Shown here: one piece after another, positions 8,676 to 23,936 of the stretch
Layout of the letters: every line of letters begins with the position of its first letter
Position numbering within the stretch: position 1 is the stretch's first letter
Position numbers and translations under genes: made by a program
Notes under the pieces: generated by a model
What the model saw: the letters and a program-made list of their open reading frames with translations, nothing else
Told to the model about the DNA's origin: nothing
Database searches by the model: none
NCBI RefSeq assembly: GCF_004025965.2
Contig: NZ_SAYU02000043.1
Location: forward strand, 1 to 35,682
DNA length: 35,682 bases
Direction of reading: 5' to 3'
Source of the DNA: Phycicoccus flavus
GTDB taxonomy: Bacteria; Actinomycetota; Actinomycetes; Actinomycetales; Dermatophilaceae

Positions 8676-8898
8676 GTCCCGACTTTCCCGCCCCATCCGG
8701 CAACCGGGGGGTTCGCGGGGGTTTCCCGACCTTGCGAACCCCTGGTTTCCCGCCCCATCCGGCAACCGGGGGGTTCGCGGGTGTCTCCCGACCTTGCGAA
8801 CCCCGACTTTCCCGCCCCATCCGGCAACCGGGGGGTTCGCGGGGGTTTCCCGACCTTGCGAACCCCTGGTTTCGCGGATGGGGCGGGAAAGTCGGGAC
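8676..8898. repeat. Tandem 62-bp hairpin repeat array, 3 units plus inverted end (array 1)
   Basis: Three units of exactly 62 bp start at 8684, 8746 and 8808, differing at only a few positions. Each contains a hairpin: GGGGTTCGC and GCGAACCCC, at 8708-8716 and 8734-8742 in the first unit, with a 17-base loop. The array is closed by a reversed copy of its own beginning: 8676-8699 is a perfect 24-bp inverted match of 8875-8898. A period of 62 is not a multiple of three, which argues against coding. There are no variable spacers, so it is not a CRISPR. It occupies nearly all the gap between divergent purC and marR, and is related to the array at 22026-22500. Confidence 0.95.
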
Positions 8899-8906
8899 CA
8901 GCGCGG

Positions 8907-8935
8907 TTGATATAGATAGGCTATCTATCTATAGT
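8907..8935 (+). promoter_or_regulatory. marR promoter with operator between -35 and -10
   Basis: TTGATA (8907-8912) and TATAGT (8930-8935) are each one base from consensus and are spaced by exactly 17 bp. The spacer holds an 8-bp inverted repeat, ATAGATAG (8912-8919) and CTATCTAT (8921-8928), with a 1-base centre. Transcription would begin near 8942, at or just before the ATG at 8944. An operator here is what an autorepressing MarR protein would use. This AT-rich island stands out sharply from its surroundings. Confidence 0.85.
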
Positions 8936-8943
8936 TGAGGGTG

Positions 8944-9405
8944 ATGAGCACCGACGACCTCGCCGACGACCTGCTGCGGTCGGCCGCCCGCCTCTCCCGC
9001 TGGGCGAGCCGCCACGCTGACCTCGGCCTGCCGTGGGCGCAGACCCGGGTCCTCGCCCTCGTCGACGAGCTCGGCCCGACCCGCGTCACCGTCCTCGCCG
9101 CCGCCGACGACACGAGCCAGCCGACGATGACCGCCCAGGTGCAGCGCCTCGAAGCCGACGGCTACGTGACCCGCACCGCCGACCCCGCCGACGGACGGGC
9201 CATCCTCGTCGCCCTCTCCCCCGCCGGCACCCGCGCCCTCGTTGACGCCCGGCGCGCCCGCGCCCGGGCCCTGGAGCCGGTGCTCGCCGGATCCGGCGTC
9301 GACCCGGCACGGCTGCGCGCCGCCGTGGACCTGCTCTCCGGGCTCGTCGACGCCACCCGCGCCGCGGACCCCGACCCGGCCGGCGTCGGCCCGCGCACCC
9401 CCTGA
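8944..9405 (+). CDS. MarR family transcriptional regulator
   Basis: This 153-residue regulator has the winged helix of the MarR family: a recognition region with DDTSQPTMTAQVQRLEADGY at about residues 57-76, and a wing with TRTADPADGRAILVALSPAG. Flanking helices form the dimer interface. The ATG at 8944 is preferred to GTG 8941 and TTG 8935, because the -10 box predicts a message starting at about 8942; this would be a leaderless start. An MFS transporter gene follows 41 bp downstream on the same strand, so the regulator probably controls itself and that exporter. Confidence 0.92.
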   Translation: MSTDDLADDLLRSAARLSRWASRHADLGLPWAQTRVLALVDELGPTRVTVLAAADDTSQPTMTAQVQRLEADGYVTRTADPADGRAILVALSPAGTRALVDARRARARALEPVLAGSGVDPARLRAAVDLLSGLVDATRAADPDPAGVGPRTP

Positions 9406-9446
9406 CCCAGCCCCCACCACCCCACCTCGAGAGGAAGCACCAGCCC

Positions 9447-10670
9447 ATGTGGCGTCAGCCCAAGACCGTCTGGAGCGTCGCGTTCGCCTGCGTCGTCGCC
9501 TTCATGGGGATCGGCCTCGTCGACCCCATCCTCAAGCCCATCGCCGACCAGCTCGACGCCACGCCCTCGCAGGTGTCGCTGCTCTTCACGAGCTACATGG
9601 CCGTCATGGGCGTCGCCATGCTCGTCACCGGCTGGGTCTCGAGCCGGATCGGCGCCAAATGCACCCTGCTCGTCGGGCTGGCCATCATCATCGTCGGGGC
9701 CGGGCTCGCCGGGCTGCAGGACAGCGTCGGCGCCATCGTCGGCTTCCGGGCCGTGTGGGGTCTCGGCAACGCCCTCTTCATCGCGACCGCGCTGGCGACG
9801 ATCGTCAACGCCGCCCGGGGCTCCGTGGCGCAGGCGATCATCCTCTACGAGGCGGCGCTGGGCCTCGGCATCGCCGCGGGGCCGCTCGTCGGCGGGGTGC
9901 TCGGCAGCATCTCGTGGCGCGGGCCGTTCTTCGGCGTCAGCGCGCTCATGCTCCTCGCCCTCGTCGCGACCTGGGTGACGCTCCCCGCCGCGAACGAGAA
10001 GCCGCACCCGACGCCGATCAGTGCGCCGCTCAAGGCACTGCGGCACCGCGGGCTGCTCACCGTCGGCGTCACCGCGCTGCTGTACAACTTCGGCTTCTTC
10101 ACCCTCCTCGCCTTCACCCCGTTCCCGCTCGACATGTCCGCGCACGGCACCGGGCTCGTCTTCTTCGGCTGGGGCCTGTTCCTCGCCGTCGCGTCGGTGT
10201 GGATCGCGCCGTTCGTGCAGCGGCACGTGGGGACCTTCGCCGGCATGGTGGGGGCCCTGCTCGGCTTCGCCGTCGTCCTCGCCGTCATGGCCGTCTGGAC
10301 CGAGCACAAGCCGGTGCTCGTCGCGGGCGTCGTCGTCGCCGGCGGGCTGCTGGGCATCAACAACACCCTCATCACCGAGACCGTCATGAAGGTCTCGCCC
10401 GTCGAGCGCGGGGTCGCCTCGGCCGCCTACAGCTTCGTGCGCTTCTCCGGCGGGGCGGTCGCCCCCTGGCTCGCGGGCCGGCTCGGCGAGGAGTCCATCC
10501 ACGTGCCGTTCTGGGTCGGCGCCTCCGCGGTCGTCGTCTCCGTCGCCGTCCTCGCCACCGGGCGCTCGTTCCTGCGCACCGCCTTCGCCGCCGAGGACGA
10601 GGAGGCCGGCGAGGCCGAGCCGCTCGCCACCCGCGAGGAGGCCGAGGGCGTCACCGTCGCCTCGGCCTGA
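9447..10670 (+). CDS. MFS transporter (drug exporter type)
   Basis: This 407-residue integral membrane protein shows about 12 hydrophobic segments and the arrangement of drug:proton antiporters. TM1 holds VVAFMGIGLVDPILKPIADQ, a motif A variant VTGWVSSRIGAKCTLL lies in loop 2-3, and there is a motif C-like YEAALGLGIAAGPLVGGVLG in TM5. GAGAGGAAG lies about 9 bases before the ATG. It follows a marR gene and is probably co-transcribed with it, which fits inducible efflux. Substrates cannot be predicted. The C-terminal tail is acidic (EDEEAGEAEP). Confidence 0.9.
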   Translation: MWRQPKTVWSVAFACVVAFMGIGLVDPILKPIADQLDATPSQVSLLFTSYMAVMGVAMLVTGWVSSRIGAKCTLLVGLAIIIVGAGLAGLQDSVGAIVGFRAVWGLGNALFIATALATIVNAARGSVAQAIILYEAALGLGIAAGPLVGGVLGSISWRGPFFGVSALMLLALVATWVTLPAANEKPHPTPISAPLKALRHRGLLTVGVTALLYNFGFFTLLAFTPFPLDMSAHGTGLVFFGWGLFLAVASVWIAPFVQRHVGTFAGMVGALLGFAVVLAVMAVWTEHKPVLVAGVVVAGGLLGINNTLITETVMKVSPVERGVASAAYSFVRFSGGAVAPWLAGRLGEESIHVPFWVGASAVVVSVAVLATGRSFLRTAFAAEDEEAGEAEPLATREEAEGVTVASA

Positions 10671-10703
10671 CGCCCCGGGCCCGGTCCGGACCCACCCGCG
10701 CGG

Positions 10704-11159
10704 TCAGCCGTCGCGGGTGACCGGGGGCCAGCGCCGCGGGCCCGGCCCCTCGGCGGCCAGCTCGTCGTCGTGGTTGTAGACCGGGCACGAGGTGAGCGAC
10801 AGGCAGCCGCACCCGATGCAGGACGACAGCCCGTCGCGCACCCGGGTCAGCGCCTCGATGCGCGCCGTGAGGTCATCGTGCCAGCGCCGGGACATCCGCT
10901 CCCAGTCGCGGGTGGTCGGCGGGCGGTCGGGCGGCAGGGCCGCGAGTGCGTCGGCGATCTCGGCGAGGCTCAGCCCGAACCGCTGGCCGGCCCGGACCAC
11001 CGCGATCCGGCGGAGCACGTGCCGCTCGAAGCGCCGCTGGTTGCCGCCGGTCCGCACCGACGACACCAGGCCCTTCTCCTCGTAGAAGCGGACGGTGGGG
11101 ACGCTCACCCCGGAGCGGGCGGCGACCTCGCCGATGGGGAGCAGGTCGTGACGGTCCAC
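10704..11159 (-). CDS. soxR: Redox-sensitive transcriptional activator SoxR
   Basis: This 151-residue MerR-family regulator has the SoxR iron-sulfur signature CIGCGCLSLTSC, with cysteines at 114, 117, 119 and 125, which hold a [2Fe-2S] cluster. The N-terminal MerR helix-turn-helix (LPIGEVAARSGVSVPTVRFY) is complete and is followed by a dimerisation helix. Oxidation of the cluster by redox-cycling compounds turns the bound protein into an activator. The start is GTG at 11159. The gene is divergent from an MFS exporter, and a recognisable SoxR box lies between them, so the exporter is the likely direct target. Actinobacterial SoxR typically senses redox-active metabolites. Confidence 0.97.
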   Translation of the reverse strand: MDRHDLLPIGEVAARSGVSVPTVRFYEEKGLVSSVRTGGNQRRFERHVLRRIAVVRAGQRFGLSLAEIADALAALPPDRPPTTRDWERMSRRWHDDLTARIEALTRVRDGLSSCIGCGCLSLTSCPVYNHDDELAAEGPGPRRWPPVTRDG

Positions 11160-11179
11160 GCCCGCAGGCTAGCCCCGGC

Positions 11180-11210
11180 TTGACCTCAGGTGCGCTTGAG
11201 GGACGAGAGT
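11180..11210 (+). promoter_or_regulatory. SoxR box within a long-spacer MFS promoter
   Basis: CCTCAGGTGCGCTTGAGG (11184-11201) is an 18-bp near-palindrome whose half-sites match at 7 of 9 positions. It closely resembles the CCTCAAG...CTTGAGG operator known for SoxR. It overlaps a -35 TTGACC (11180-11185). The -10 candidate GAGAGT (11205-11210) is 19 bp further on, the stretched spacing typical of MerR-family targets. Transcription would start at about 11217, the GTG of the MFS gene. Confidence 0.88.
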
Positions 11211-11216
11211 CGGGCG

Positions 11217-12647
11217 GTGACCGCCACGAGTTCCCCGACCGCCCCCCGCGAACGGCTGCTGGACCGGCGGTACCTGCCCGTGGTCGTCGGCGTCGTCGCG
11301 CTCGTGACGCTGGCCGCCTTCGAGAACCGCGCGGTCATGACGATCCTCCCCGTCGTCGTCCGCGACCTCGACGGCTGGGCGCTGTTCGGGGCCTCGACCG
11401 GCGCCTCGCTCGTCACCTTCACCGTCGCGACCGCCTGGTCGGGGTCCTGGACCGACCGCCTCGGCCCGCGGCCGGTGCTGCTCGCCGGCCTCGGCCTGTT
11501 CGTCGCGGCCCAGGTCGTCTCCGCCCTCGCGCCGACCATGCCGCTCTTCGTCGCGGGTCGGGCCCTGTCCGGCGCGGCCGAGGCCCTCGTCGACACCACC
11601 CTGCTCGTCCTCGTCGCCCAGGCCCTGCCGGAGTCGCTGCGGGCCAAGGTCTTCGCGTCCTTCGCCGCCGCCTGGATCCTGCCCTCGCTGCTCGGCCCCG
11701 GACTCGCGGGCGCCATCGAGGGGCTCGCCGGCTGGCGGTTCGTCTTCCTCGGCCCGCTGCTCGTCGTGCCCCCGGCCCTGGTCCTGCTGCGGGTCGCCCT
11801 GCGCCGGGGCGGCGGCCCGGCCGCGACGAGCGCCGACGACCCCGGCGCCCGGGGCCGGCTCGGCGCCGCCGTCCTCCTCGCGGCCGGGCTCGCCGTCACG
11901 ACGTTCTCCGCCCCGCTCCTCGACTCCACCGCCACGCGGGTCGCCGGGCTCGCCGTCGTCGGTGCCGGCGCCGTCGTCGTCGTCCTCGCCGCCACCCGCG
12001 CCCTGCCCGCCGGGACGGCACGGCTCGCCCCGGGCGTCCCGGCGGTCGTGGGCCTGCGCCTGCTCACCTCGGCCGCCTTCACCGGCGTGGGGTCCGTCCT
12101 GCCGCTCATGCTCGTGACGACCCACGACGTGTCGACGACCGTCGCCGGTGTCTCGCTCTCGGTCACGGGGGTCATGTGGGCGTTCGGGTCCTGGCTCAAC
12201 AGCACCGGCCGCGTGCAGGACGGCGTCACCGCGGCCGTCCGCACCCGGGCCGGCGGCCTGCTCATCGCGGTCGGGGCCGCGGGGCCGGTCCTCCTCGCGC
12301 TCGACCTGCTCCCGGTCGCCGCCGGGATGGTCGGCTGGGCCCTGGCCGCCACGGGCATGGGCATCCTCTCCCCCACCCTGTCGACCGAGCTGCTCGAGCA
12401 CGCGCCGCGGGCCGAGCGCGGGCGGGCGAGCGCCGCCCAGGGCCTGGCCATCTCGACCGGGGTGGCGCTGCAGACCGGGCTCGTCGGCGCCGTCGTCGCG
12501 TGGTTCGGGCCGGCGATGGACGGACCGCGCTTCGCCGCCCTCATGACCAGCGGGGCGCTCGTCGCCCTCGTCGTCGCGGCCGGCGCGTCCCGGATGGCGC
12601 CCGCCCGGGCCCGGCAGCGGGGCGACGCCGCGCCGCGGCCTGCGTAG
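11217..12647 (+). CDS. MFS transporter, predicted SoxR target
   Basis: This 476-residue protein has about 14 hydrophobic segments. TM1 has VVVGVVALVTLAAFENRAVM, motif A is SWTDRLGPRPVLLAGLG, and RALSGAAEALVDTTLLVLVA follows. A GTG at 11190 is also in frame, but it lies inside the SoxR box. The GTG at 11217 coincides with the predicted transcription start and is chosen, giving a leaderless message. Regulation by SoxR suggests export of redox-active compounds or antibiotics. The substrate is unknown. Confidence 0.88.
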   Translation: MTATSSPTAPRERLLDRRYLPVVVGVVALVTLAAFENRAVMTILPVVVRDLDGWALFGASTGASLVTFTVATAWSGSWTDRLGPRPVLLAGLGLFVAAQVVSALAPTMPLFVAGRALSGAAEALVDTTLLVLVAQALPESLRAKVFASFAAAWILPSLLGPGLAGAIEGLAGWRFVFLGPLLVVPPALVLLRVALRRGGGPAATSADDPGARGRLGAAVLLAAGLAVTTFSAPLLDSTATRVAGLAVVGAGAVVVVLAATRALPAGTARLAPGVPAVVGLRLLTSAAFTGVGSVLPLMLVTTHDVSTTVAGVSLSVTGVMWAFGSWLNSTGRVQDGVTAAVRTRAGGLLIAVGAAGPVLLALDLLPVAAGMVGWALAATGMGILSPTLSTELLEHAPRAERGRASAAQGLAISTGVALQTGLVGAVVAWFGPAMDGPRFAALMTSGALVALVVAAGASRMAPARARQRGDAAPRPA

Positions 12648-12650
12648 CGT
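12645..12650 (+). promoter_or_regulatory. -10 box of a leaderless LLM oxidoreductase gene
   Basis: TAGCGT fits TANNNT and is followed by exactly 6 bases and then ATG at 12657, so transcription should start on the A. The first three bases are also the TAG stop of the upstream MFS gene. No clear -35 is visible. Confidence 0.6.
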
Positions 12651-12656
12651 GGGGTC

Positions 12657-13580
12657 ATGGACCTGCGCATCTTCACCGAGCCCCAACAGGGCGCCACCTA
12701 CGACGACCTCCTCGCCGTGGCCAGGGCCGCAGAGGACCTCGGCTACGACGCGTTCTTCCGGTCCGACCACTACCTGCGGATGGGCGACGGCGACCCCGGT
12801 CCCGGCCCCACCGACGCGTGGACCACCCTCGCCGGCCTGGCCCGCGAGACCCACCGGATCCGGCTGGGCACGCTCGTCACGTCGGCGACCTTCCGGCTGC
12901 CGGGGCCGCTCGCCGTCACCGTCGCCCAGGTCGACGCCATGAGCGGCGGGCGCGTCGAGCTGGGGCTCGGTGCCGGCTGGTTCGAGGCCGAGCACGCCGC
13001 CTACGGCATCCCCTTCCCGCCGCTGAAGGAGCGCTTCGACCGGCTCGAGGAGCAGCTGGCCGTCGTCACCGGGCTCTGGCGCGCCCCGGCCGGGTCGCGC
13101 TGGGACCACGACGGCTCGCACTACCCGGTGAGCGACTCGCCGGGCCTGCCCAAGCCGGTCCAGGAGGGCGGCGTGCCCGTCATCGTCGGCGGGGGCGGCA
13201 AGCGCCGCACGCCGAGCCTCGCGGCCCGCTACGCCGCCGAGTTCAACGTCCCCTTCTCCTCGGTCGAGGACACCGCCCGGCTCTTCGCGCGGGTCGACAC
13301 CGTCTGCGACGAGCACGGCCGCGACCCGATGAGCCTCGTCCACTCCGCGGCCCAGGTCGTCTGCATCGGCCGGGACGACGCCGCCGTCCGCCGCCGCGCC
13401 GAGGCCATCGGCCGCGACCCGGACGAGCTGCGCCGCAACGGCGTCGCCGGAACCCCGGAGGAGGCCCGCGACCGGCTCGGCCGGCTGGCGGAGGCCGGCG
13501 CGGCCCGGGTCTACCTGCAGATGCTCGACCTCGCCGACCTGGACCACCTGGCCGACGCCCACGCCGCCCTCACCGCCTGA
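12657..13580 (+). CDS. LLM class F420-dependent oxidoreductase
   Basis: This 307-residue luciferase-like TIM-barrel protein resembles the actinobacterial F420-dependent group. It opens with MDLRIFTEPQQGATYDDLLA, has YDAFFRSDHYLRMGDGDPGP around residues 30-50 and the family segment GRVELGLGAGWFEAEHAAYG near 98-118. VPVIVGGGGKRRTPSLAARY follows near 178. Such enzymes reduce or oxidise diverse substrates with F420, or less often FMN. F420 use is inferred from family resemblance. It follows the MFS gene by 9 bp but has its own leaderless promoter. It converges on purD with a 17-bp gap. Confidence 0.9.
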   Translation: MDLRIFTEPQQGATYDDLLAVARAAEDLGYDAFFRSDHYLRMGDGDPGPGPTDAWTTLAGLARETHRIRLGTLVTSATFRLPGPLAVTVAQVDAMSGGRVELGLGAGWFEAEHAAYGIPFPPLKERFDRLEEQLAVVTGLWRAPAGSRWDHDGSHYPVSDSPGLPKPVQEGGVPVIVGGGGKRRTPSLAARYAAEFNVPFSSVEDTARLFARVDTVCDEHGRDPMSLVHSAAQVVCIGRDDAAVRRRAEAIGRDPDELRRNGVAGTPEEARDRLGRLAEAGAARVYLQMLDLADLDHLADAHAALTA

Positions 13581-13597
13581 GCGGTCGGGACCGACGG

Positions 13598-14884
13598 TCA
13601 GGACGGGACGGCGACCTCGCCCCGCTCGGCCGCCGCGGCGATGTCGCGGCGGTGGTGCGAGCCGGGGAGCCCGACGGCGTCGACCGCCGCGTAGACCGCG
13701 GAGCGGGCGTCGGCGAGCGTCGCCCCCGACGCGACGACCGACAGCACCCGGCCGCCGGACGCGACGAGCAGTCCGTCGTCGTCGTACGCGGTCCCGGCGT
13801 GCAGGACGTAGGCGCCCGGCGCCCCCGGCACGTCCTCGACGCCCGTCACCGGTCCCCCGGTCACCGGCGCCCCGGGGTAGTTCTCGGCGGCCACGACGAC
13901 CGTGACGGCCGTGTCCGCCGACCAGCGCAGCGGCTCGACCTCGGCCAGCCGTCCGGTGGCGGCGGCGAGCAGCAGCCGGCCGAGCGGCGTGCGCAGCCGG
14001 TCCAGGACGACCTGGGTCTCGGGGTCGCCGAAGCGGACGTTGAACTCGACGACCTTCGGCCCGCGGGCGGTGAGGGCGAGCCCGACGTAGAGGACCCCGG
14101 CGAACGGGGTGCCGCGCCGGGCCATCTCGTCGACCACCGGCTGCGCGACCCGCGCCACGACGTCGTCGACGAGGCCCTCGGGCGCCCAGGCCAGCGGGCT
14201 GTACGCGCCCATCCCCCCGGTGTTCGGGCCGCTGTCGCCCTCCCCCACCCGCTTGAAGTCCTGCGCCGGCGCCAGCGGCAGCACGGTCTCGCCGTCGCAG
14301 ACGCAGAACAGCGAGACCTCGGGGCCGTCGAGGAACTCCTCGACGACGACCCGCCCGTCCTCCTTGGCCAGGCACGCGGCGGCGTGCTCCAGCGCCTCGT
14401 CCCGGTCCTCGGTGACGACGACCCCCTTGCCGGCCGCGAGCCCGTCGTCCTTGACGACGTACGGCGCGCCGAGGGCGTCGACGGCGTCCCGGACCTGCGG
14501 CAGGGTCGTGCACACGTGGGCGAGCGCCGTCGGCACCTGGGCGACGCCCATGACCTCCTTGGCGTAGGCCTTGCTGCCCTCGAGGCGGGCCGCGTCGGCG
14601 GACGGTCCGAAGCACGGGACGCCGGCGTCCCGGACGGCGTCGGCCACCCCGGCGACGAGCGGCGCCTCGGGCCCGACGACGACGAGGTCGACGTCGTGGC
14701 GGCGCACGAGGTCCAGCACGCCGGCGGCGTCCGCGGGACCGCCCGGGAGCGGCTCGCAGTGCGCGACGGTGGCGATGCCGGGGTTGCCGGGCGCGGCGAG
14801 GACGGCGTCGACCGACGGGTCCAAGGCGAGCGACCGGACGAGGGCGTGCTCGCGGGCACCGGACCCGAGGACGAGGACCTTCAC
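13598..14884 (-). CDS. purD: Phosphoribosylamine-glycine ligase
   Basis: GAR synthetase catalyses the second step of purine synthesis, joining phosphoribosylamine and glycine with ATP. The 428-residue ATP-grasp protein begins [20 protein letters not shown]. It shows [20 protein letters not shown] near residue 138 (ATP-grasp lysines), [18 protein letters not shown] near 216, and [14 protein letters not shown] near 279. The GTG at 14884 is chosen because it starts the conserved Rossmann-like strand and is preceded by a -10 box at leaderless distance; further upstream the frame loses similarity. It is unlinked to purL and purC here, so it is transcribed on its own. Confidence 0.97.
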
Positions 14885-14891
14885 GCCGGCC

Positions 14892-14897
14892 AGCCTA
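14892..14897 (-). promoter_or_regulatory. -10 box of purD
   Basis: On the minus strand TAGGCT fits TANNNT and is followed by 7 bases and then the GTG at 14884. A leaderless purD message is predicted. Confidence 0.55.
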
Positions 14898-14963
14898 GGG
14901 GAGCGGCCCCGCCGCGCTGCGCCGCGCGCATGTTGCGCCATCCGAGACGAAGCGCCTCCAGCG

Positions 14964-14979
14964 GTCACGATTCCGTCAC
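14964..14979 (+). promoter_or_regulatory. Direct repeat GTCAC-N6-GTCAC
   Basis: Two GTCAC half-sites (14964-14968 and 14975-14979) are 11 bp apart, one helical turn. This is the spacing used by OmpR-family response regulators. It lies in the 284-bp gap between purD and the osmoprotectant-binding protein gene. In related actinobacteria the MtrA regulator binds GTNAC-type direct repeats and controls osmoprotectant uptake, so MtrA is a candidate. The match is short and could be chance. Confidence 0.35.
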
Positions 14980-15168
14980 ATCACCGGCGGGGACGCGGAC
15001 ACGAAGGGGCGCGAGGGCCGATGGTGGGTGCGGCAGTCCTCCGCGCCCCGGTCCGGTGGACGCACCCGACGTGTGCTCTCGCCCACCGTGGACGACGCTC
15101 AGCGGGAGGCGCGGCGCTGCCTGGCACGACATCGTTCGACGTTCCGACGACACGAAGGTGACGCATCC

Positions 15169-16131
15169 ATGACAACACGCAAGCCCATCTCTCTCGCGGC
15201 GGCGGCGCTCGTCGCCGGACTGGCCCTCACCGCCTGTGGCAGTGACAGCAGCGGTGGCGGCGGTGGAGGAGGCGGTGGCGGCGACGCCAAGGCCCTCGAC
15301 GGCGTGAGCATCACCGTCGGCTCCAAGGACTTCACCGAGAACATCCTCCTCGGCAAGTTCCTCGTCAAGGCGATGGAGGCCCAGGGCGCCAACGTCACCG
15401 ACAAGACCAACCTCGGTGGCTCGGCCGTGAACCGCGAGGCGCTGCTGGCCGGTCAGGTCAACGTCTCGCCCGAGTACAACGGCACCGGCTGGACCGTGTA
15501 CCTCAAGCACGACGACCCGGGCAACGACCCCAAGGCGCTGTACGAGAAGGTCGCCAAGGAGGACCTGGAGAAGAACAAGCTCAAGTGGGTCGGCACCTCC
15601 CCCTTCAACGACACCTACGGCTTCGCCGCCAACGGTGACCTCGCGAAGAAGGAGGGCGGCTTCGACTTCCAGAAGATGGCCGACTACCTCAAGGCGAACC
15701 CGAGCTCCACGGTGTGCATGGAGACCGAGTTCCCCGACCGCCCCGACGGCCTCGTGCTGTTCGAGAAGGCGACGAAGTACAAGGTCCCGCAGAGCCAGAT
15801 CAAGATCCTCGACACCGGCCTCATCTACACCGAGACCGCCAAGGGCTCCTGCGACTTCGGCGAGGTCTTCACGACCGACGGACGCATCACGGCGCTCAAC
15901 CTCGAGCTCGTCAACGACCCCGGCGTGATGATCCTGTACAACGTCTCCTACGTCTTCCAGGACGAGGTGTACCAGAAGAACGCGCAGGCCTACGACGACA
16001 TGGTCAACAAGATCCTCGCGCCGCTGGACAACGCCAAGATGGCCGAGCTCAACGCGAAGGTCGACGTCGAGGGCGACTCCGCGGACAAGGTCGCGGAGGA
16101 CTACATCGACGAGATCGGCCTCAACGGCTGA
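15169..16131 (+). CDS. Osmoprotectant ABC transporter substrate-binding lipoprotein (OpuCC/QAT type)
   Basis: This 320-residue exported lipoprotein has a basic N terminus, a hydrophobic stretch and the lipobox LTAC with Cys 23. A ten-glycine linker follows at about 29-38. The mature part has the glycine betaine/choline-binding signature VGSKDFTENILLGKFLVKAM and VSPEYNGTGWTVYL. It should capture quaternary ammonium compounds outside the membrane and deliver them to the permeases encoded convergently at 16722-19547. AAGGTG lies 8 bases before the ATG. The gene stands alone on the plus strand, so it can be expressed at a different level from its permeases. Confidence 0.93.
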   Translation: MTTRKPISLAAAALVAGLALTACGSDSSGGGGGGGGGGDAKALDGVSITVGSKDFTENILLGKFLVKAMEAQGANVTDKTNLGGSAVNREALLAGQVNVSPEYNGTGWTVYLKHDDPGNDPKALYEKVAKEDLEKNKLKWVGTSPFNDTYGFAANGDLAKKEGGFDFQKMADYLKANPSSTVCMETEFPDRPDGLVLFEKATKYKVPQSQIKILDTGLIYTETAKGSCDFGEVFTTDGRITALNLELVNDPGVMILYNVSYVFQDEVYQKNAQAYDDMVNKILAPLDNAKMAELNAKVDVEGDSADKVAEDYIDEIGLNG

Positions 16132-16164
16132 TCCTCCTCGGCGTCCCGCACGGACACCGGCGAG

Positions 16165-16195
16165 CGGCGGCGGACCCCCCTGGGGGCCGCCGCCG
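16165..16195. terminator. Terminator between substrate-binding protein and converging operon
   Basis: CGGCGGCGG (16165-16173) pairs with CCGCCGCCG (16187-16195). An inner CCCCC/GGGGG stem continues it past a single bulged A at 16174, leaving a 2-base CT gap at the tip. This is one of the strongest hairpins in the window and lies 33 bp after the stop. It should work in both directions. Confidence 0.85.
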
Positions 16196-16282
16196 TTCGC
16201 GTGCCCGGGGCCGGGTGGGTCCCGCCCCGGGTCCGTCCCGCGCCGGTCGAGCCGCGCGACGGCGACGCCGGGCCGGCGGTCG

Positions 16283-16729
16283 TCAGCGCAGCGGGACGCG
16301 GCCGATCTCGGCGATGCGGGACGCGAGCCGGCTGGGGAACATCGTGCGCTGCGTGCCGCCCTCGGCCAGCCCGACCGTCACGGTGTCGTGGAACGGCCCG
16401 GGCTTCTCGACGTGCGCGACCTCGGCCCAGCCGAGCCGTCGGCCGCGGCGGGGTTCGTCCAGCCCGAAGGCATCGGCGACGTACTCGCGCCGCAGCTGCC
16501 ACCAGGCGACCACCTGCAGCCCGCCCAGCAGCACCGGGAAGGCGAGGAGGCGCGGGTCCGGCGACCCGTCCCCGATCAGCCCCCCGACCACCTGCACGAG
16601 CGCCAGGAGCACGACGGCGGCGACCAGCCACCGGTAGAGCCGGGGCAGCCGCACCCGGACGACGAGGCGCTCGCCGTCGTCGGCGACGTCGTAGCGGTCG
16701 TCGCCGCGCCCCTCGTCGGGGTCAGACAC
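16283..16729 (-). CDS. Small membrane protein with PH-like C-terminal part
   Basis: This 148-residue protein is not firmly recognised. An acidic N terminus is followed by two hydrophobic segments (YRWLVAAVVLLALVQVVGGL and LLAFPVLLGGLQVVAWW, about residues 32-75). A soluble C-terminal part, with RRLGWAEVAHVEKPGPFHDT and VTVGLAEGGTQRTMFPSRLA, looks like the bacterial PH-type domain of short actinobacterial membrane proteins. Its GTG overlaps the stop of the upstream permease, so it is the last gene of the osmoprotectant transport operon. A role in that transport is inferred from position only. Confidence 0.8.
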   Translation of the reverse strand: MSDPDEGRGDDRYDVADDGERLVVRVRLPRLYRWLVAAVVLLALVQVVGGLIGDGSPDPRLLAFPVLLGGLQVVAWWQLRREYVADAFGLDEPRRGRRLGWAEVAHVEKPGPFHDTVTVGLAEGGTQRTMFPSRLASRIAEIGRVPLR

Positions 16730-17588
16730 CCTTCGGACGGAGGTAGGTCTCCGCCAGGGCCCCGATCCAGTCGAAGGTCAGCGCGACGATGGCCACGAGA
16801 GCGGCCCCGATGATGAGCACGGGGTCCTGCTGCAGCTTCAGGCCGCTGTTGATGGTCACGCCGAGCCCGCCGCCGCCGATGAGGAAGGCCAGCGTCGCCA
16901 TGCCGATGTTGAGGATCATCGCGACGCGCACGCCGGCGAGGATGACCGGCACCGCGAGCGGCAGCTCGATCTTCGTCAGGGCCTGCATACGGGTGAGCCC
17001 CATGCCCCGGCCGGCTTCGATGATGTTCCGGTCGACCCCGTCGAGGCCGACCATCGTGTTGCGCAGCACCGGCAGCAGCGCGTACAGCGTGAGCGCCCAG
17101 ATGACCGTCCACTTGCCCTGGCCCAGCAGCGACAGGAAGAGGATGAGCAGGCCGTAGGCGGGCAGGGCCTGGCCGGAGTTCGCCACTGCGACGATCGCCG
17201 GGCCGTAGCGGCGCAGCGGCGGCCGGGTGAGCATGATCCCCAGCGGGATGGCGACGACGACGACGAGCAGCGTCGACCAGAACGCGATCTGCAGGTGCTG
17301 GAGGGTCTGCGGCCACAGCTTGGTGCCCCACTCCAGCGAGGACCGCAGCTGGATGACCGCGTCGTTCAGGCCCAGGCTCTGGTAGTAGAGGTAGACGACG
17401 AGCGCGAGAAGCGCGATGCCGACGGGCGCGAGCTTGAGGCCGAGGTGGTTGGCCCGGGCCCGTCGCAGCCACGACGCCTCGTGGGAGGGGCCGCCGGTGG
17501 CGGGCCGGTGGCCCTCCTGCAGCTCCGGGTTGTCCGCGTCCTGGCCCTCGTACCCGATGCGCCCCTGGGCGCCGGTCGCCGCCGTCAT
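16722..17588 (-). CDS. Osmoprotectant ABC transporter permease (second)
   Basis: This 288-residue permease has about six membrane segments after a hydrophilic N-terminal tail of some 45 residues. The BPD-type inner-membrane domain carries the coupling-helix region EAGRGMGLTRMQALTKIELP, then LAVPVILAGVRVAMILNIGM, which contacts the ATPase. It pairs with the permease at 18888-19547 to form the pore of a quaternary-amine importer. Its start overlaps the ATPase stop by 4 bases. Family assignment is secure; the exact substrate among betaine, choline, carnitine and proline is not. Confidence 0.93.
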   Translation of the reverse strand: MTAATGAQGRIGYEGQDADNPELQEGHRPATGGPSHEASWLRRARANHLGLKLAPVGIALLALVVYLYYQSLGLNDAVIQLRSSLEWGTKLWPQTLQHLQIAFWSTLLVVVVAIPLGIMLTRPPLRRYGPAIVAVANSGQALPAYGLLILFLSLLGQGKWTVIWALTLYALLPVLRNTMVGLDGVDRNIIEAGRGMGLTRMQALTKIELPLAVPVILAGVRVAMILNIGMATLAFLIGGGGLGVTINSGLKLQQDPVLIIGAALVAIVALTFDWIGALAETYLRPKGV

Positions 17589-18814
17589 GTCGTCTCCAGC
17601 TGCTCGTAGTGCTCCCGGGCCTCGAGCCTCGCCCGGCGGATCGCCTTGTTGAGGTGGGTGAGCCGCACGACCCCGTAGAACGAGCCGTCCTCGCGCACGA
17701 CCGGGGAGACGGCGGCCTCGCTGATGAGCATCTGCTCGAGGGCCTCGAAGAGCGTCGCCCCGATGGAGACCTTGGCGAGGACCTCGGTACCGGACTCGGC
17801 GGTGACGTCGTTGCCGCTGTCGAGCTCGGAGACCGGGACCCAGCGGATGGGGTGCTCGTCGCCGTCGAGCAGGAGCACCCAGTCGGTCTGCGCCTCCTGC
17901 GCCCGGGCCCGCGCCTCGGCGGGACGGTCGGTGAGGTGCATCGTCGGGTACGGGTCCAGCTGGACGTCCTCGCGGACGGTCTCGAAGTGCAGGCCCTTGA
18001 GGGTCGAGCCCTCGCCGATGAAGTCGCGGACGAACTCGTCGACGGGGAAGGCGAGGATCCGCTCGGGGGTGTCGACCTGGCGGATGACGCTCTGCTCGCC
18101 GAGGATCGCGATGCGGTCACCCATCTTGATCGCCTCGTCGATGTCGTGGGTGACGAAGACGATCGTCTTGCGGATCTCGGCCTGGACCCGGAGGAACTCG
18201 TTCTGCAGCCGGTCCCGGGTGATGGGGTCGATGGCGCCGAACGGCTCGTCCATGAGCATGATCTCGGGGTCCGCCCCGAGGGCGCGGGCGACGCCGACGC
18301 GCTGCGCCTGGCCGCCGGAGAGCTCCTTGGGGTACCGGTCGCGGTAGACCTCGGGGTCGAGCCCCACGACGGACAGCAGCTGGTCGCTGCGCTCCGCGAT
18401 CTTCTTCTTGTCCCACTTGAGCATCTTCGGCACCGTGGCGATGTTCTGCGCGATGGTCTGGTGCGGGAAGAGGCCGATCTGCTGGATGACGTAGCCGATG
18501 CGGCGCCGGAGCTTGTCCGGGTTGGCCTTGGTCACGTCCTCCTCGTCGAGGAAGATCCGCCCGCCGGTGGGCTCGATCATCCGGTTGATGAGGCGCAGCG
18601 TCGTGCTCTTGCCGCAGCCGGACGGCCCGACGAGGACGAGGATCTCGCCCTCGAGGATGTCGAGGGAGAGGCTGGCCACCGCCGGCTGCTTGGTGCCGGG
18701 GTACCTCTTCTCGACGTGCTCGAGGCGGATCTTCGTCGCGCGGTCCTCCGGACGGGTCGAGCCGCGGCTCGTCGACTCGTTCGTGTCGAGGTGGATGTTC
18801 GCGGTGTCGCTCAT
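17585..18814 (-). CDS. Osmoprotectant ABC transporter ATP-binding protein with CBS region
   Basis: This 409-residue ATPase is of the OpuCA/ProV type. The Walker A motif is GPSGCGKST at about residue 64, the Q-loop is IQQIGLFPHQT, the signature is LSGGQAQR near 165, and Walker B is IMLMDEPFGAIDPITR near 185, with the switch His in VTHDIDEA. The C-terminal third (about 300-400) is CBS-like and includes SEAAVSPVVREDGSFYGVVR. In OpuA-type systems such domains sense ionic strength, so osmotic gating is inferred. A 73-bp gap separates it from the upstream permease gene, and it overlaps the downstream one. Confidence 0.95.
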   Translation of the reverse strand: MSDTANIHLDTNESTSRGSTRPEDRATKIRLEHVEKRYPGTKQPAVASLSLDILEGEILVLVGPSGCGKSTTLRLINRMIEPTGGRIFLDEEDVTKANPDKLRRRIGYVIQQIGLFPHQTIAQNIATVPKMLKWDKKKIAERSDQLLSVVGLDPEVYRDRYPKELSGGQAQRVGVARALGADPEIMLMDEPFGAIDPITRDRLQNEFLRVQAEIRKTIVFVTHDIDEAIKMGDRIAILGEQSVIRQVDTPERILAFPVDEFVRDFIGEGSTLKGLHFETVREDVQLDPYPTMHLTDRPAEARARAQEAQTDWVLLLDGDEHPIRWVPVSELDSGNDVTAESGTEVLAKVSIGATLFEALEQMLISEAAVSPVVREDGSFYGVVRLTHLNKAIRRARLEAREHYEQLETT

Positions 18815-18887
18815 GCGTCTGTCTCTCGTTTCGTCCCGGGTCGGGAGGGCCGTGCGGCGAGTCGGGTCGTGGCGGGTGACGAGCCGC

Positions 18888-19547
18888 TCACATCCGTTGT
18901 CCCTTGGTGGTCGTGACGCGCTGGAAGGTGGCCCACACCAGGTCCAGGACGAGACCGAGGACGACGGTGAAGACGACCCCCGTCCACACCGACTCCAGGC
19001 TGTTGGGCAGGCCGAGGCGGGTGAGGCCGCTCTGGATGTACGTGCCGAGCCCGTCGCCGCCGACGAGGACGGCGATGGCGGCGATGCCGACCGTGATGAG
19101 GCTGGAGATGCGGATCCCGGCCATGATGATCGGCCACGCCAGCGGGATGCGGATCTGGAAGAGCTGGGACATGGTGCTCATCCCCATGCCCTTGGCCGAC
19201 TCGACGACCGCGGGCGGCACCGAGTCCAGGCCGGTGACGGTGTTGCGCAGGATCGGGAGCAGCGCGTAGAGGAAGAGCGCGAGCATCGCCGGGGTGTTGC
19301 CGATGCCGACGATGGGGATGAAGATCGCGAAGAGCGCGAGGGAGGGGATGGTGAGGAAGATCCCGGTGATGCTCAGCGACAGCGCGCGCACCGTGGGGCG
19401 GCGCTGGGCGTAGACCCCCAGCAGGACCGAGAAGATCGTCGCGGCGATGACGACGGTGAGGGTGATCTTGGCGTGGTCCCAGGTGTCGGCGAGGATCTCG
19501 TCGGGCCGTCCCGAGATGTAGTCGAACCAGCTGATGATTCCGTCCAC
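18888..19547 (-). CDS. Osmoprotectant ABC transporter permease (first)
   Basis: This 219-residue permease has about five to six membrane segments and a BPD-type domain with ESAKGMGMSTMSQLFQIRIP, then LAWPIIMAGIRISSLITVGI, as the coupling region. The GTG at 19547 (VDGIISWFDY) is preferred because GAGGAAGG lies just upstream and homologues begin near this point. An in-frame GTG at 19580 would add 11 residues but has no ribosome binding site. It is the first gene of the minus-strand transport operon and diverges from helD. Confidence 0.92.
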   Translation of the reverse strand: MDGIISWFDYISGRPDEILADTWDHAKITLTVVIAATIFSVLLGVYAQRRPTVRALSLSITGIFLTIPSLALFAIFIPIVGIGNTPAMLALFLYALLPILRNTVTGLDSVPPAVVESAKGMGMSTMSQLFQIRIPLAWPIIMAGIRISSLITVGIAAIAVLVGGDGLGTYIQSGLTRLGLPNSLESVWTGVVFTVVLGLVLDLVWATFQRVTTTKGQRM

Positions 19548-19651
19548 GTAGCCTTCCTCGAACGCTCGGGGACCGACCACCTCGTGCGCCGTGACGCGGC
19601 CGGGAAATCCTGTCTATCAGACGAGTAATGCCCACGTCACCGGTTGCCGGG

Positions 19652-19663
19652 CCCCACGTGGGG
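19652..19663. promoter_or_regulatory. Palindrome CCCCACGTGGGG between transport operon and helD
   Basis: A perfect 12-bp palindrome lies in the 227-bp divergent region, about 105 bp from the permease start and 112 bp from the helD start. It may be an operator or a weak hairpin. The protein that might bind it is unknown. Confidence 0.35.
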
Positions 19664-19723
19664 GATTCGTGGCCGTGCCGTGACCCGCGGGCGTCCCCGT
19701 CGGGGCCGGTGCGGGCCCCGGTC

Positions 19724-19729
19724 TAGACT
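19724..19729 (+). promoter_or_regulatory. -10 box of helD
   Basis: TAGACT fits the actinobacterial -10 pattern. It predicts a transcription start near 19736 and a leader of about 40 bases. That leader contains AAGGAG at 19758-19763, 11-12 bases before the GTG at 19775. Confidence 0.55.
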
Positions 19730-19774
19730 TGTCCGTTCCGCCGGACGCCGAGCCATGAAGGAGACCGCGGCTTC

Positions 19775-22015
19775 GTGACGACCCACCCTGAGGGCAGCCC
19801 CACCACCTCCCCGGGACCGTCCCCGGACGTCGACACCGCCCCCGAGGTCGCCCGTGAGGTGGCGGCCGAGCAGGCCCACGTCGACCGGGTCTACGAGGAG
19901 CTCGCGAAGGCCTCCGTGCGGGCCGGTGACGTCGAGGCCGAGGGGCTGGCGCGCGGGCGCACCGACCGCACCGGTGACGTGCGCGACGAGGAGATGACCG
20001 GCCTGTTCGAGCGCGACGCGCTCGTGTTCGCCGCCACCCGGCGCCGGGCGATGATCGACACGCAGTACGAGGGGCTCGTCTTCGGGCGCCTCGACCTCGG
20101 CACCGAGGACTCCACCGCCGCCGAGCGCGAGGTCCGGCACATCGGACGGCTCGGGGTGCGCGACGACGACTACGAGCCGCTCGTCGTCGACTGGCGGGCC
20201 CCGGCCGCCGCAGCCTTCTACCGCGCCACCCCCGTCGACCCCATGGGCGTCGTCCGGCGGCGGGTGCTGCGCTGCCGCGGGTCGCGAGTCGTCGGGGTCG
20301 AGGACGATCTCATGGTGCCACTTGCCCCTGAGGACATCGTCGTCGTCGGCGACGGCGCCCTCATGGCCGCCCTGACCCGCTCTCGCGGCCGGCAGATGCG
20401 CGACATCGTCGCCACCATCCAGGCCCACCAGGACGAGGCGATCCGGGCGCCGTCGCGCGGGGTCACCGAGATCAGCGGCGGGCCGGGCACCGGCAAGACG
20501 GTCGTCGCCCTGCACCGGGCCGCCTACCTGCTGTACGCCGAGCGACGCCGCTTCGAGCACGGCGGGATCCTCGTCATCGGCCCCTCCGCGGCGTACACGG
20601 CGTACATCGAGCGGGTGCTGCCGAGCCTCGGCGAGGAGTCGGTCGCGCTGCGCGCCCTCGGCGACGTCGTCGACGGCGTCACCGCCACCCGCCCGGACAC
20701 CCCCGAGGTCGCAGCGGTCAAGGGCTCGCTGCGCATCCGGCGGCTGCTCTCGCGGGTCGCCGCCCGCCCGCCGGTGGGCGCGCCGGACACCTTCCGCGCC
20801 TTCGTCGCCGGGCAGGCCGTGCGGCTGGACCACGACGCCCTGCGACGGGTCCGCGCCGAGGTCCTGCGCGGCCACCAGCACAACCTCGCCGCTCAGGCCG
20901 CCCGCTCCGCCCTCAGCGAGGCCGCGTGGCGGTCGGTGGGCCGCCAGGGCGACCGCGACGACTTCATGGACGCCTTCGACGCCTCCCGTGACGTCGACGA
21001 CTTCATGGCCTCCTGGTGGCGCCAGCTGGACCCGCGCGAGCTGCTGCTGACCCTCACCGACACCGACCACGTCTACGCGGTCTCGCGCGGCGTGCTCGAC
21101 CACGAGGAGGGCGCGGCGATCGCCTGGTCCTTCCGCGAGGCGCTGGAGACCGGCGCGTGGTCGGTCGCCGACATCGCTCTGATCGACGACCTCCTCGCCC
21201 GCCTGGGGCCGGTGCAGGACGCCGAGCGGGAGGAGACCGGCTTCTACGACATCGAGGAGCTCGACGACCTCTCCGCGTACGGCGTCACCGACGTGCGGGC
21301 CGGGCTCGGCCGGGCGACGCCGTCGACCCGGGCCGTCATCACGCCGGCGGACGCGCGCGGCCGGCTGCTCGCCGGGCGCCTGGAGCGGGCGTCGGGCTAC
21401 GCGCACGTCCTCGTCGACGAGGCGCAGGACCTCTCGCCCATGCAGTGGCGGATGGTGGCGCGGCGGGGCCGGTCGGCGTCGTGGACGGTCGTCGGCGACG
21501 CGGCGCAGGCGTCGTGGTCCGACCTCGACGAGGCGGGCCGGGCCCGTGAGGAGGCCTTCGCCGGGCTGGAGCGGCGCGCCTTCCACATGGACACGAACTA
21601 CCGCAACGCCCGCGAGATCTTCGACCACGCCCGCGACGTCATCCTGCCGCTCGTGCCCGACGCCGACATCCCGCTCGCGGTGCGCGAGACCGGGGTCGAG
21701 CCGGTCGACCGGGTGGTCGAGGGCTCGCTCATGCACGAGACGTCCGACGCCCTGGAGCAGGTGCTGCGGGAGGTCGACGGCTCGGTGGCGGTCATCACCC
21801 CGCGGCGCTGGGCCGACCGGCTCGCCGCGCTCGACGGCGCGGGCGACGGGCGGGTGCAGCTCGTCGACCCGTTGTCGACCAAGGGCCTGGAGTGGGACGC
21901 GACCGTCGTCGTCGACCCCGACGCCATCGTCGAGGAGTCACCGGGCGGCGTGCGCGTCCTCTACGTCGTCCTCACCCGCGCGGCCCACCGGATGCACGTC
22001 CTGCGCCCCACCTGA
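19775..22015 (+). CDS. helD: HelD-family RNA polymerase recycling ATPase (UvrD/Rep-like)
   Basis: This 746-residue superfamily 1 ATPase has Walker A GGPGTGKT at about 235-242 and Walker B VDEAQDLSPMQW near 547. FHMDTNYRNAREIFDHARDV lies near 607, and a C-terminal DPLSTKGLEWDATVVVDPDA and YVVLTRAAHRMHVL complete the UvrD-like motifs. The N terminus has a charged helical arm (VAREVAAEQAHVDRVYEELA), typical of HelD, which reaches into the RNA polymerase secondary channel. HelD frees stalled polymerase from nucleic acid, and some actinobacterial relatives protect against rifamycins. A resistance role here is not shown. The gene ends just before the repeat array at 22026. Confidence 0.92.
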   Translation: MTTHPEGSPTTSPGPSPDVDTAPEVAREVAAEQAHVDRVYEELAKASVRAGDVEAEGLARGRTDRTGDVRDEEMTGLFERDALVFAATRRRAMIDTQYEGLVFGRLDLGTEDSTAAEREVRHIGRLGVRDDDYEPLVVDWRAPAAAAFYRATPVDPMGVVRRRVLRCRGSRVVGVEDDLMVPLAPEDIVVVGDGALMAALTRSRGRQMRDIVATIQAHQDEAIRAPSRGVTEISGGPGTGKTVVALHRAAYLLYAERRRFEHGGILVIGPSAAYTAYIERVLPSLGEESVALRALGDVVDGVTATRPDTPEVAAVKGSLRIRRLLSRVAARPPVGAPDTFRAFVAGQAVRLDHDALRRVRAEVLRGHQHNLAAQAARSALSEAAWRSVGRQGDRDDFMDAFDASRDVDDFMASWWRQLDPRELLLTLTDTDHVYAVSRGVLDHEEGAAIAWSFREALETGAWSVADIALIDDLLARLGPVQDAEREETGFYDIEELDDLSAYGVTDVRAGLGRATPSTRAVITPADARGRLLAGRLERASGYAHVLVDEAQDLSPMQWRMVARRGRSASWTVVGDAAQASWSDLDEAGRAREEAFAGLERRAFHMDTNYRNAREIFDHARDVILPLVPDADIPLAVRETGVEPVDRVVEGSLMHETSDALEQVLREVDGSVAVITPRRWADRLAALDGAGDGRVQLVDPLSTKGLEWDATVVVDPDAIVEESPGGVRVLYVVLTRAAHRMHVLRPT

Positions 22016-22025
22016 CCCAACTTCC

Positions 22026-22500
22026 TCGCCTGATCCCGGAACCCATTCTCGCCTGATCCCGCAACCTTCACCTTCGCCGGGGTTCGGTTCCCCCGCGAAC
22101 CCGAGCTTTCTCGCCTGATCCCGGAACCTTCAGCCTCGCCGGGGTTCGGTTCCCCCGCGAACCCGAGCCTTCTCGCCTGATCCCGCAACCTTCACCTTCG
22201 CCGGGGTTCGGCTCCCCCGCGGACCCGAGCTTCCTCGCCTGATCCCGCAACCTTCGCCTTCGCCGGGGTTCGGTTCCCCCGCGGACCCGAGCTTCCTCGC
22301 CTGACCCCAGAACCTTCACCCTCGCCGGGGTTCGGTTCCTGCGCGGACCCGAGCTTCCTCGCCTGACCCCGGAACCTTCGCCTTCGCCGGGGTTCGGTTC
22401 CCCCGCGGACCCGAGCTTTCTCGCCTGATCCCGGAACCTTCAGCTTCGCCGGGGTTCGGTTCCTGCGCGAACCCGAAGGTCGGTGGATCAGGCGAGAAAG
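22026..22500. repeat. Tandem 62-bp hairpin repeat array, 7 units plus inverted end (array 2)
   Basis: Seven consecutive units begin TCGCCTGA at 22049, 22111, 22173, 22235, 22297, 22359 and 22421, every 62 bp with no slippage. A partial unit precedes them at 22026. Each has a hairpin GGGTTCG - 9 bases - CGAACCC (22080-22086 and 22096-22102 in the first unit). In four units the second arm is CGGACCC, which still pairs as G-U in plus-strand RNA. The array ends with GGATCAGGCGAGAAAG (22485-22500), the exact reverse complement of the unit start at 22416-22431. It fills the gap between the converging helD and purA genes and may act as their terminator. It is neither CRISPR nor coding. Confidence 0.95.
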
Positions 22501-22505
22501 TGGAG

Positions 22506-23936
<1,431 letters not shown>

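Follow-up and report, generated by a model that had tools for sequence, protein, structure and literature searches.

Two hairpin arrays of Phycicoccus flavus belong to a dispersed palindrome population whose ends bracket an AbiEi-Vsr-like gene

Introduction

Small repeats of the REP-like kind are common in bacteria, and two arrays of a hairpin-forming unit in the soil actinobacterium Phycicoccus flavus raise the question of what such arrays are built from and what spreads them. We analysed a window of 35,682 nucleotides (contig NZ_SAYU02000043.1), the genome that holds it (handle G000; other G and L numbers denote genomes and loci) and a set of relatives, using sequence patterns and protein searches. 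The arrays in the window are local pile-ups of a short dispersed hairpin element, and inverted, often palindromic ends bracket an AbiEi-Vsr-like gene family in many actinobacteria.

Results

The sequence-only reading had described ten units with a 62-bp period, each array being closed by the reversed unit start. Both observations held, with three units in array 1, seven in array 2, and an inverted arm at the end of each. Array 1 lies between divergent and array 2 between convergent genes, as called by a simple GC-codon ORF caller:

8676..8898, + strand: array 1, B type; three 62-bp units in direct orientation, with starts at 8684, 8746 and 8808, closed by an inverted arm (8876-8890)
8808..8890, + strand: complete 83-bp palindrome of B type, running from the arm through an inner hairpin to the inverted arm, with an arm spacing of 68 and pairing at 33 of 38 symmetric positions
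22022..22500, + strand: array 2, A type; truncated first arm at 22022, seven direct 62-bp units at 22045-22478 (last start 22417), inverted arm at 22485-22499
22417..22499, + strand: complete 83-bp palindrome of A type, with an arm spacing of 68 and pairing at 30 of 38 symmetric positions
7682..8653, - strand: SAICAR synthetase (Pfam PF01259), host gene left of array 1
8941..9405, + strand: MarR family (Pfam PF01047 for 8944-9405), host gene right of array 1
19859..22015, + strand: UvrD-like helicase (Pfam PF00580 for 19775-22015), host gene left of array 2
22506..23807, - strand: adenylosuccinate synthetase (Pfam PF00709 for 22506-23900), host gene right of array 2

Relative to dinucleotide shuffles, folding of the last unit together with its inverted arm gave z values of -9.6 in array 1 (8802-8899) and -7.9 in array 2 (22416-22502). 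The two strands of the window hold 7 exact arm matches, compared to 0 in 50 mononucleotide shuffles. Searches of the window with Rfam at the gathering threshold and for tRNAs returned no known RNA and no tRNA, respectively. Of two further element types, C had no copy in the window at up to 4 mismatches, and D had a single match at 3 mismatches, which we took as chance.

Across the P. flavus genome, the arm matched 140 times at up to 3 mismatches, while reversed-pattern controls matched 0 times. As the 45 stretches that we read were drawn from about 100 listed of these 140 matches, the counts that follow are a partial census. The arm occurs in three forms, namely 83-bp palindromes, 62-bp arrays and single ends. 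Among the matches listed, inverted arm pairs had a spacing of 68 in 19 of 20 cases and 50 of 51 clusters lay outside called genes; the inner part of the palindromes formed on average 16.9 of 23 pairs (9.5 when shuffled). The earlier view of the two arrays as one family is borne out by the genome-wide matches and by array L066, in which the A and B subfamilies stand together. The pure tandem-repeat reading was dropped after the genome scan had revealed dispersed pairs and singles, and the arrays seem to be a by-product; the element's basic form is the 83-bp palindrome found dispersed, or one end of the kind that stands beside the AbiEi/Vsr-like nuclease gene.

Uniformity within a locus and divergence between loci, as claimed earlier, stood on average. 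In the 62-bp arrays of P. flavus, the 47 bp between arms were 85% identical within an array (47 same-type pairs) versus 66% between arrays (229 pairs), whereas the 15-bp arms were 93% and 92% identical, indicating a real average contrast; arrays L066 (0.65) and L076 (0.49) were much less uniform. In array L043, the units measure about 96 bp and neighbouring host DNA was duplicated into them. Because some arrays have thus duplicated adjoining host DNA as well, either local tandem duplication or the homogenisation proposed before is the likely cause of the uniformity. Within the element, both positions had changed in 13 of 38 pairs, and none of 500 shuffles reached the covariation score. We do not lean on this signal, because double-change pairs were ordinary in number (319 of 500 shuffles had as many) and because much of it reflects the A/B subfamily split.

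In P. flavus, element ends flank, in inverted orientation, genes whose protein product resembles the AbiEi antitoxin at its N-terminus and Vsr/homing endonucleases at its C-terminus. Pfam assigned AbiEi_4 and DUF559-like domains, the N-terminus being an AbiEi-like winged helix, and found no transposase domain. Fold matching, which rests on the VIA listing, so that a family absent there may still match, placed in the protein the AbiEi antitoxin fold and the core Vsr/homing endonuclease fold with its acidic active-site residues; the latter are invariant, and the nuclease role is putative. PADLOC returned AbiEi models only, NCBIfam and PHROGs searches gave no match, and a sequence search of solved structures gave weak alkylhydroperoxidase-type matches only. 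Databases file the protein as an antitoxin or an unknown domain. One of the places taken by the inverted ends is just behind the stop codon. Genes beside loci L048 and L040 resemble malate dehydrogenase, a membrane protein and a chlorite-dismutase-like protein (judged partly by eye; L040 borders a contig end on one side), and we noticed no AbiEii partner beside the gene copies read in this genome, neighbours again being judged partly by eye. Four element families were examined in P. flavus, and each matches the inverted ends around one such gene of this genome. Furthermore, a third dispersed family, predicted from a flank palindrome of a third paralog, was found at 55 places.

The association extends to relatives. 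Strong inverted flanks were present at 46 of 79 relatives' genes (the best 80 of at least 434 confirmed relatives, minus one locus short of flank), compared to 4 of 913 neighbour genes. A second set showed inverted flanks in 19 of 29 loci (29 of 30 were scored; L245 was not located); it overlaps the first, with at least four identical flanks, seen by eye, under two handles (L112/L228, L117/L233, L138/L242 and L121/L239). Among the matches listed, the flank element of the gene was present at two or more distant places in at least 14 of 20 genomes; Janibacter terrae (G150) had at least 15 places apart from the gene. A further scan gave at least 150 rows, with 17 candidates scored per genome. Of 11 protein pairs with at least 60% identity, 8 shared elements, in a comparison over 38 loci with a score of at least 20. 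The protein alignment A2 comprised 5 plus 60 sequences, with L134, L160 and L180 left out of 63 usable loci. As the search patterns for relatives contained EFDG..KY and ED.LR.LGY, these residues are conserved partly by construction; the ES.GE motif was missing by pattern in L160, L168, L174 and L188.

At orthologous sites in genus mates, the element was absent from all 20 gaps read, which were chosen for close-lying flanks (longer gaps, such as those of G106 and G134 at the purA site, were left out). At the array 2 site, P. flavus has an intergenic gap of 490 bp, versus -4, 34 and 54 bp in the three relatives examined there. Two close relatives hold other palindromes at the same orthologous site. 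The flanks of these empty sites are too diverged to place the junction or the exact target site.

Y1/HUH transposases of the RAYT type (PF01797) were absent in 19 of 21 genomes, P. flavus among them, and present in two; as a positive control, the same search matched in 5 of 14 control genomes. A RAYT/HUH partner was hence rejected for these 19 genomes. A Pfam search of 93 neighbouring genes found no transposase among the 25 families listed of 155.

Discussion

The arrays are probably part of a REP/REPIN-like system of dispersed palindromes in which a Vsr-type nuclease takes the place of RAYT as the partner. As in REP/REPIN systems with RAYT (TnpA-REP; "REPtrons"), short extragenic palindromes occur in tens of copies, inverted doublets form hairpins next to singles and tandem clusters, and a dedicated gene is flanked by the same ends, with close gene relatives sharing the element. 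Unlike in REPtrons, the bracketed gene encodes an AbiEi-like plus Vsr-like protein and no HUH/Y1 transposase; unlike REP elements, the 19 aligned 83-bp elements contain no GTAG or CGTC on either strand (0 of 19). Terminal inverted repeats around a gene also recall IS elements and MITEs, and TIRtrons, as described in the sections of PMC3733652 available to us, likewise place a gene between terminal inverted repeats and have repeats of these termini dispersed in the genome; the TIRtrons of those sections carry tyrosine (HUH) transposases, whereas the gene here lacks a Pfam transposase domain. Compared to the homing endonuclease I-Bth0305I and the Vsr mismatch nuclease, the present gene is free-standing and has inverted ends of its own, of which dispersed copies exist, and its nuclease-like part is joined to an AbiEi-like N-terminus; the AbiEi of AbiE type IV toxin-antitoxin systems differs from the bracketed protein, which carries a nuclease-like domain.

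Alternatively, the palindromes could be binding or regulatory sites (operators, terminators or nucleoid sites) of an AbiEi-type regulator that plays no part in moving them, their copies being multiplied by other means under selection. The winged helix at the N-terminus and the very stable hairpins would suit such a role, as would the preference of clusters for gaps between convergent genes (17 of 45 classifiable clusters versus 41 of 225 adjacent gene pairs in the same stretches; Fisher p 0.005), expected of terminators. We nevertheless consider it unlikely, given that the gene has inverted ends on either side, even directly after its stop codon, that the protein combines a nuclease fold of the Vsr kind with acidic residues that do not vary, and that close relatives differ by gain or loss of elements, two of them carrying other palindromes at the site.

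A still more doubtful idea is that these are ordinary REP/MITE repeats moved by an unlinked transposase, with the nuclease genes as frequent landing sites or passengers. Similar small palindromes elsewhere have been proposed as RAYT or IS derivatives in the portions of PMC3116915 and PMC3733652 consulted, and a Y1 transposase does occur in two of the 21 genomes. Against this stand the 19 genomes without one and the lack of a transposase among the neighbour families listed; moreover, random landing would neither pair each paralog with its own repeat family nor make close protein relatives share elements. Finally, a tandem-repeat family locked at 62 bp by helical phase (six turns per unit) and homogenised locally, as the sequence-only reading had proposed, is scarcely credible: 62 bp does recur in at least nine P. 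flavus arrays, rather than at two loci only, with the inner uniformity given above, but the same arm has other direct spacings in at least 11 stretches of this genome (73-74, 84, 86, 94, 96-97, 107, 135, 138, 158-159, 163, 169-174 and 178 bp), B-type arrays of G007 have a period of 60-61 bp with one spacing of 83, and 56 of the counted arms, as well as the pairs, fall outside 62-bp arrays among the matches listed; helical phasing was rejected on the spread of periods.

Under the REP/REPIN-like reading with a Vsr-type partner, the nuclease-like protein may be what spreads the repeats. We infer that its winged-helix AbiEi-like part would recognise the conserved arms of its own ends, and that the Vsr/homing-endonuclease-like domain would nick or cut the hairpin or cruciform made by these ends. 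Repair or replication could then copy an end, or a two-end palindrome, into new intergenic sites, while the gene itself would mostly stay put. Tandem duplication across the hairpin would subsequently enlarge arrays of the window's type in place, each step of 62 bp corresponding to one arm plus one inner hairpin.

In the sources consulted on REP-like repeats, each seen in part, the HUH transposase RAYT is the only dedicated enzyme described. The chances seem to us evenly balanced that the genes filed as "AbiEi antitoxin / DUF559" in high-GC actinobacteria drive dispersed palindromes as a second, independently evolved REP-type mobile class. If so, a Vsr-fold, homing-endonuclease-like enzyme with an AbiEi-like reader would spread hairpin DNA, several gene-element pairs would exist side by side in one genome, and mobile DNA would include an enzyme class without an HUH, DDE or recombinase domain. 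Overall, the finding makes the question of who moves REP-like repeats without RAYT directly testable, offers a hypothesis for the function of a widespread uncharacterised protein family, and would account for hairpin arrays of the kind described here.

A dispersed family of palindromic elements

The two arrays of the window, which the sequence-only reading had taken for one repeat family with a 62-bp period, are built as follows:

8676-8898: array 1, three direct 62-bp units, then an inverted final arm
22022-22500: array 2, seven units preceded by a truncated arm and closed by an inverted one

Each unit consists of a 15-bp arm (A type, TTTCTCGCCTGATCC; B type, TTTCCCGCCCCATCC) followed by 47 bp with an inner hairpin, and the fold of the last unit plus inverted arm gave z scores of -9.6 (array 1) and -7.9 (array 2). 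Divergent genes for SAICAR synthetase and MarR enclose array 1, while convergent genes for a UvrD-like helicase and adenylosuccinate synthetase enclose array 2. Adjoining array 1, an AT-rich partial palindrome immediately upstream of the MarR gene (8909-8934) looks, from its sequence, like a candidate operator of that regulator.

Upon searching the whole Phycicoccus flavus genome (4.26 Mb, 153 contigs) with the 22-bp unit start at up to three mismatches, we found 140 matches versus none for the reversed pattern. A census of arms (up to two mismatches) in the window and in 45 stretches around places among the matches listed yielded 20 inverted pairs, 23 units of 62-bp arrays and 56 other arms. 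As arm spacing within the inverted pairs was 68 bp in 19 cases and 67 bp in one, the complete element is an 83-bp palindrome, in which a mean of 16.9 of the inner 23 symmetric pairs were formed versus 9.5 in shuffles. Direct arm spacing of 62 bp occurred 23 times, in nine arrays, and spacings of 73 to 178 bp occurred at eleven other stretches; the array at locus L066 mixes A and B units. Five contigs (C33, C39, C46, C130 and C139) have an element within ~400 bp of a terminus, which suggests that assembly broke at the repeats and that real copy numbers may be higher.

By site, 51 clusters fell between tandem genes (23), convergent genes (17) or divergent genes (5), at contig ends (5) or within a called gene (1), with convergent gaps over-represented (17 of 45 clusters versus 41 of 225 adjacent gene pairs in the same stretches, p = 0.005). 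The main rival explanation, that the palindromes act as regulator sites or terminators, is compatible with mobility.

Among 149 genomes drawn from the family, five contained the exact arm: P. flavus (104), G007 from another genus (29, with only the B type among its matches listed), G044 (3), G134 (1) and G135 (1). At six element sites, 20 orthologous gaps in genus mates spanned -4 to 94 bp and held no arm even with two mismatches allowed, compared to 114 to 490 bp for the element-bearing P. flavus counterparts. Where P. flavus has an A-type element at locus L042, the orthologous sites of G120 (L212) and G146 (L213) hold unrelated palindromes, as if the same safe sites were used by different element families.

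Element ends bracket an AbiEi-like gene

Two inverted element pairs in P. flavus each enclose a gene:

L040:2543-3472: B-type ends, 309 aa
L048:3303-4232: A-type ends, 309 aa

In both proteins Pfam identified an N-terminal AbiEi_4 domain and a C-terminal DUF559/MTES_1575 (Vsr-like REase) match under cut-off; sections of PMC3710099 place the MTES_1575-named REase in giant HEPN fusions. The same gene type is enclosed likewise in G007 (locus L079) and adjoins the single exact arm of G134. Of the 56 other A/B copies, gene flanks included, 34 finish with the tail seen on the gene-flanking ends; none of the 43 units in pairs or arrays does so. B-type single ends (e.g., L040 2353 and L038 2992) carry a 3' tail, CCCTTGC, complementary to the hairpin-loop GCAAGGG, which could possibly form a pseudoknot or alternative pairing.

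P. flavus has four long and two partial paralogs, and the third and fourth showed, by eye, their own palindromic inverted flanks. The dispersed palindrome predicted from the third paralog's flank was found at 55 places (two at the gene; control 0), with nine pairs 60-61 bp apart among the 50 places listed. Allowing up to two mismatches, the pattern from the fourth paralog's flank matched 16 times; four of these matches lie at the gene and some of the others are weak. A possible decayed gene-element pair lies at C123:21290-21803 (L104), where 39 C-terminal residues match the nuclease and a C-type palindrome sits ~370 bp away.

Gene-element pairing in relatives

We compared 500 bp upstream with the reverse complement of 500 bp downstream in the best 80 of 434 confirmed relatives (79 scored), from Phycicoccus, Knoellia, Janibacter, Intrasporangium, Serinicoccus, Terrabacter, Ornithinimicrobium, Kribbella, Jiangella, Rhodococcus, Marmoricola, Hoyosella, Actinotalea, Flexivirga and others. 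Strong local similarity (score of at least 20) was found for 46 of 79 genes versus 4 of 913 neighbour genes at the same loci (Fisher p = 9e-53). With direct orientation the counts were 41 of 79 versus 8 of 913, in keeping with palindromic ends. In the 46 genes the aligned ends, many visibly self-complementary, were 26 to 155 bp long and lay 14 to 470 bp upstream of the start codon on one side and 1 to 173 bp past the stop on the other; the 155-bp end in Kribbella sandramycini (L151 9756-9910) contains tandem sub-repeats. A second set, drawn from 12 genomes and sharing some loci with the first, gave 19 of 29 versus 0 of 35.

Upon querying 20 genomes with their 20 flank elements joined, 147 of the 150 matches listed were to the genome's own element; the remaining three comprised a nearly own match in G152 and two matches in G134, including one 84 bp from a G134 paralog. 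After dropping each gene's two flanks and double-strand duplicates, at least 99 own-element places were left. Among the matches listed, distant places numbered two or more in 14 of the 20 genomes and one in G161, with none for G134, G154, G162, G165 and G166. Element sharing tracks protein similarity in close pairs (8 of 11 pairs at ≥60% identity, 0 of 58 at 40 to 60% and 4 of 634 below 40%), with a Pearson correlation of 0.62 (0 of 2000 permutations as high) and a Spearman correlation of only 0.18.

Seemingly stable genes and spreading ends

The A-type gene adjoins malate dehydrogenase in P. flavus, G134 and G001, and in Phycicoccus sp. CSK15P-2 (L111) ~1.3 kb separates the two; a chlorite-dismutase-like gene adjoins a family member in P. 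flavus (L040) and G128 (L227), with neighbours matched by eye. The genes look to stay in place while their ends spread, resembling the REP transposase that PMC8266576 terms domesticated. The REP-associated transposase family PF01797 was not found in 19 of the 21 genomes searched, including P. flavus, G007 and G134, and was present in G160 and G162; the search was positive in 5 of 14 control genomes. The 25 listed of 155 Pfam families from 93 neighbouring proteins included no transposase, and AbiEi_4 occurred in two of these proteins, as expected from the L040 and L048 genes. Among the top-ranked titles and abstract openings listed by searches of open full-text literature, we found no AbiEi/DUF559 genes tied to REP-like repeats.

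Genes and elements thus form matched pairs, copies are dispersed, and presence differs between species. Protein-driven spread of hairpin ends is the reading we favour as fairly probable, with confidence slightly reduced by the low Spearman correlation and by five genomes in which no distant copy was listed. The AbiEi-like winged helix would read the conserved arms, the Vsr-fold domain would cut the hairpin, and copying would then follow. Arm conservation was equal within and between arrays, unlike that of the inner part, as would be the case for arms serving as the recognition site. Following such spread, arrays would expand through local duplication.
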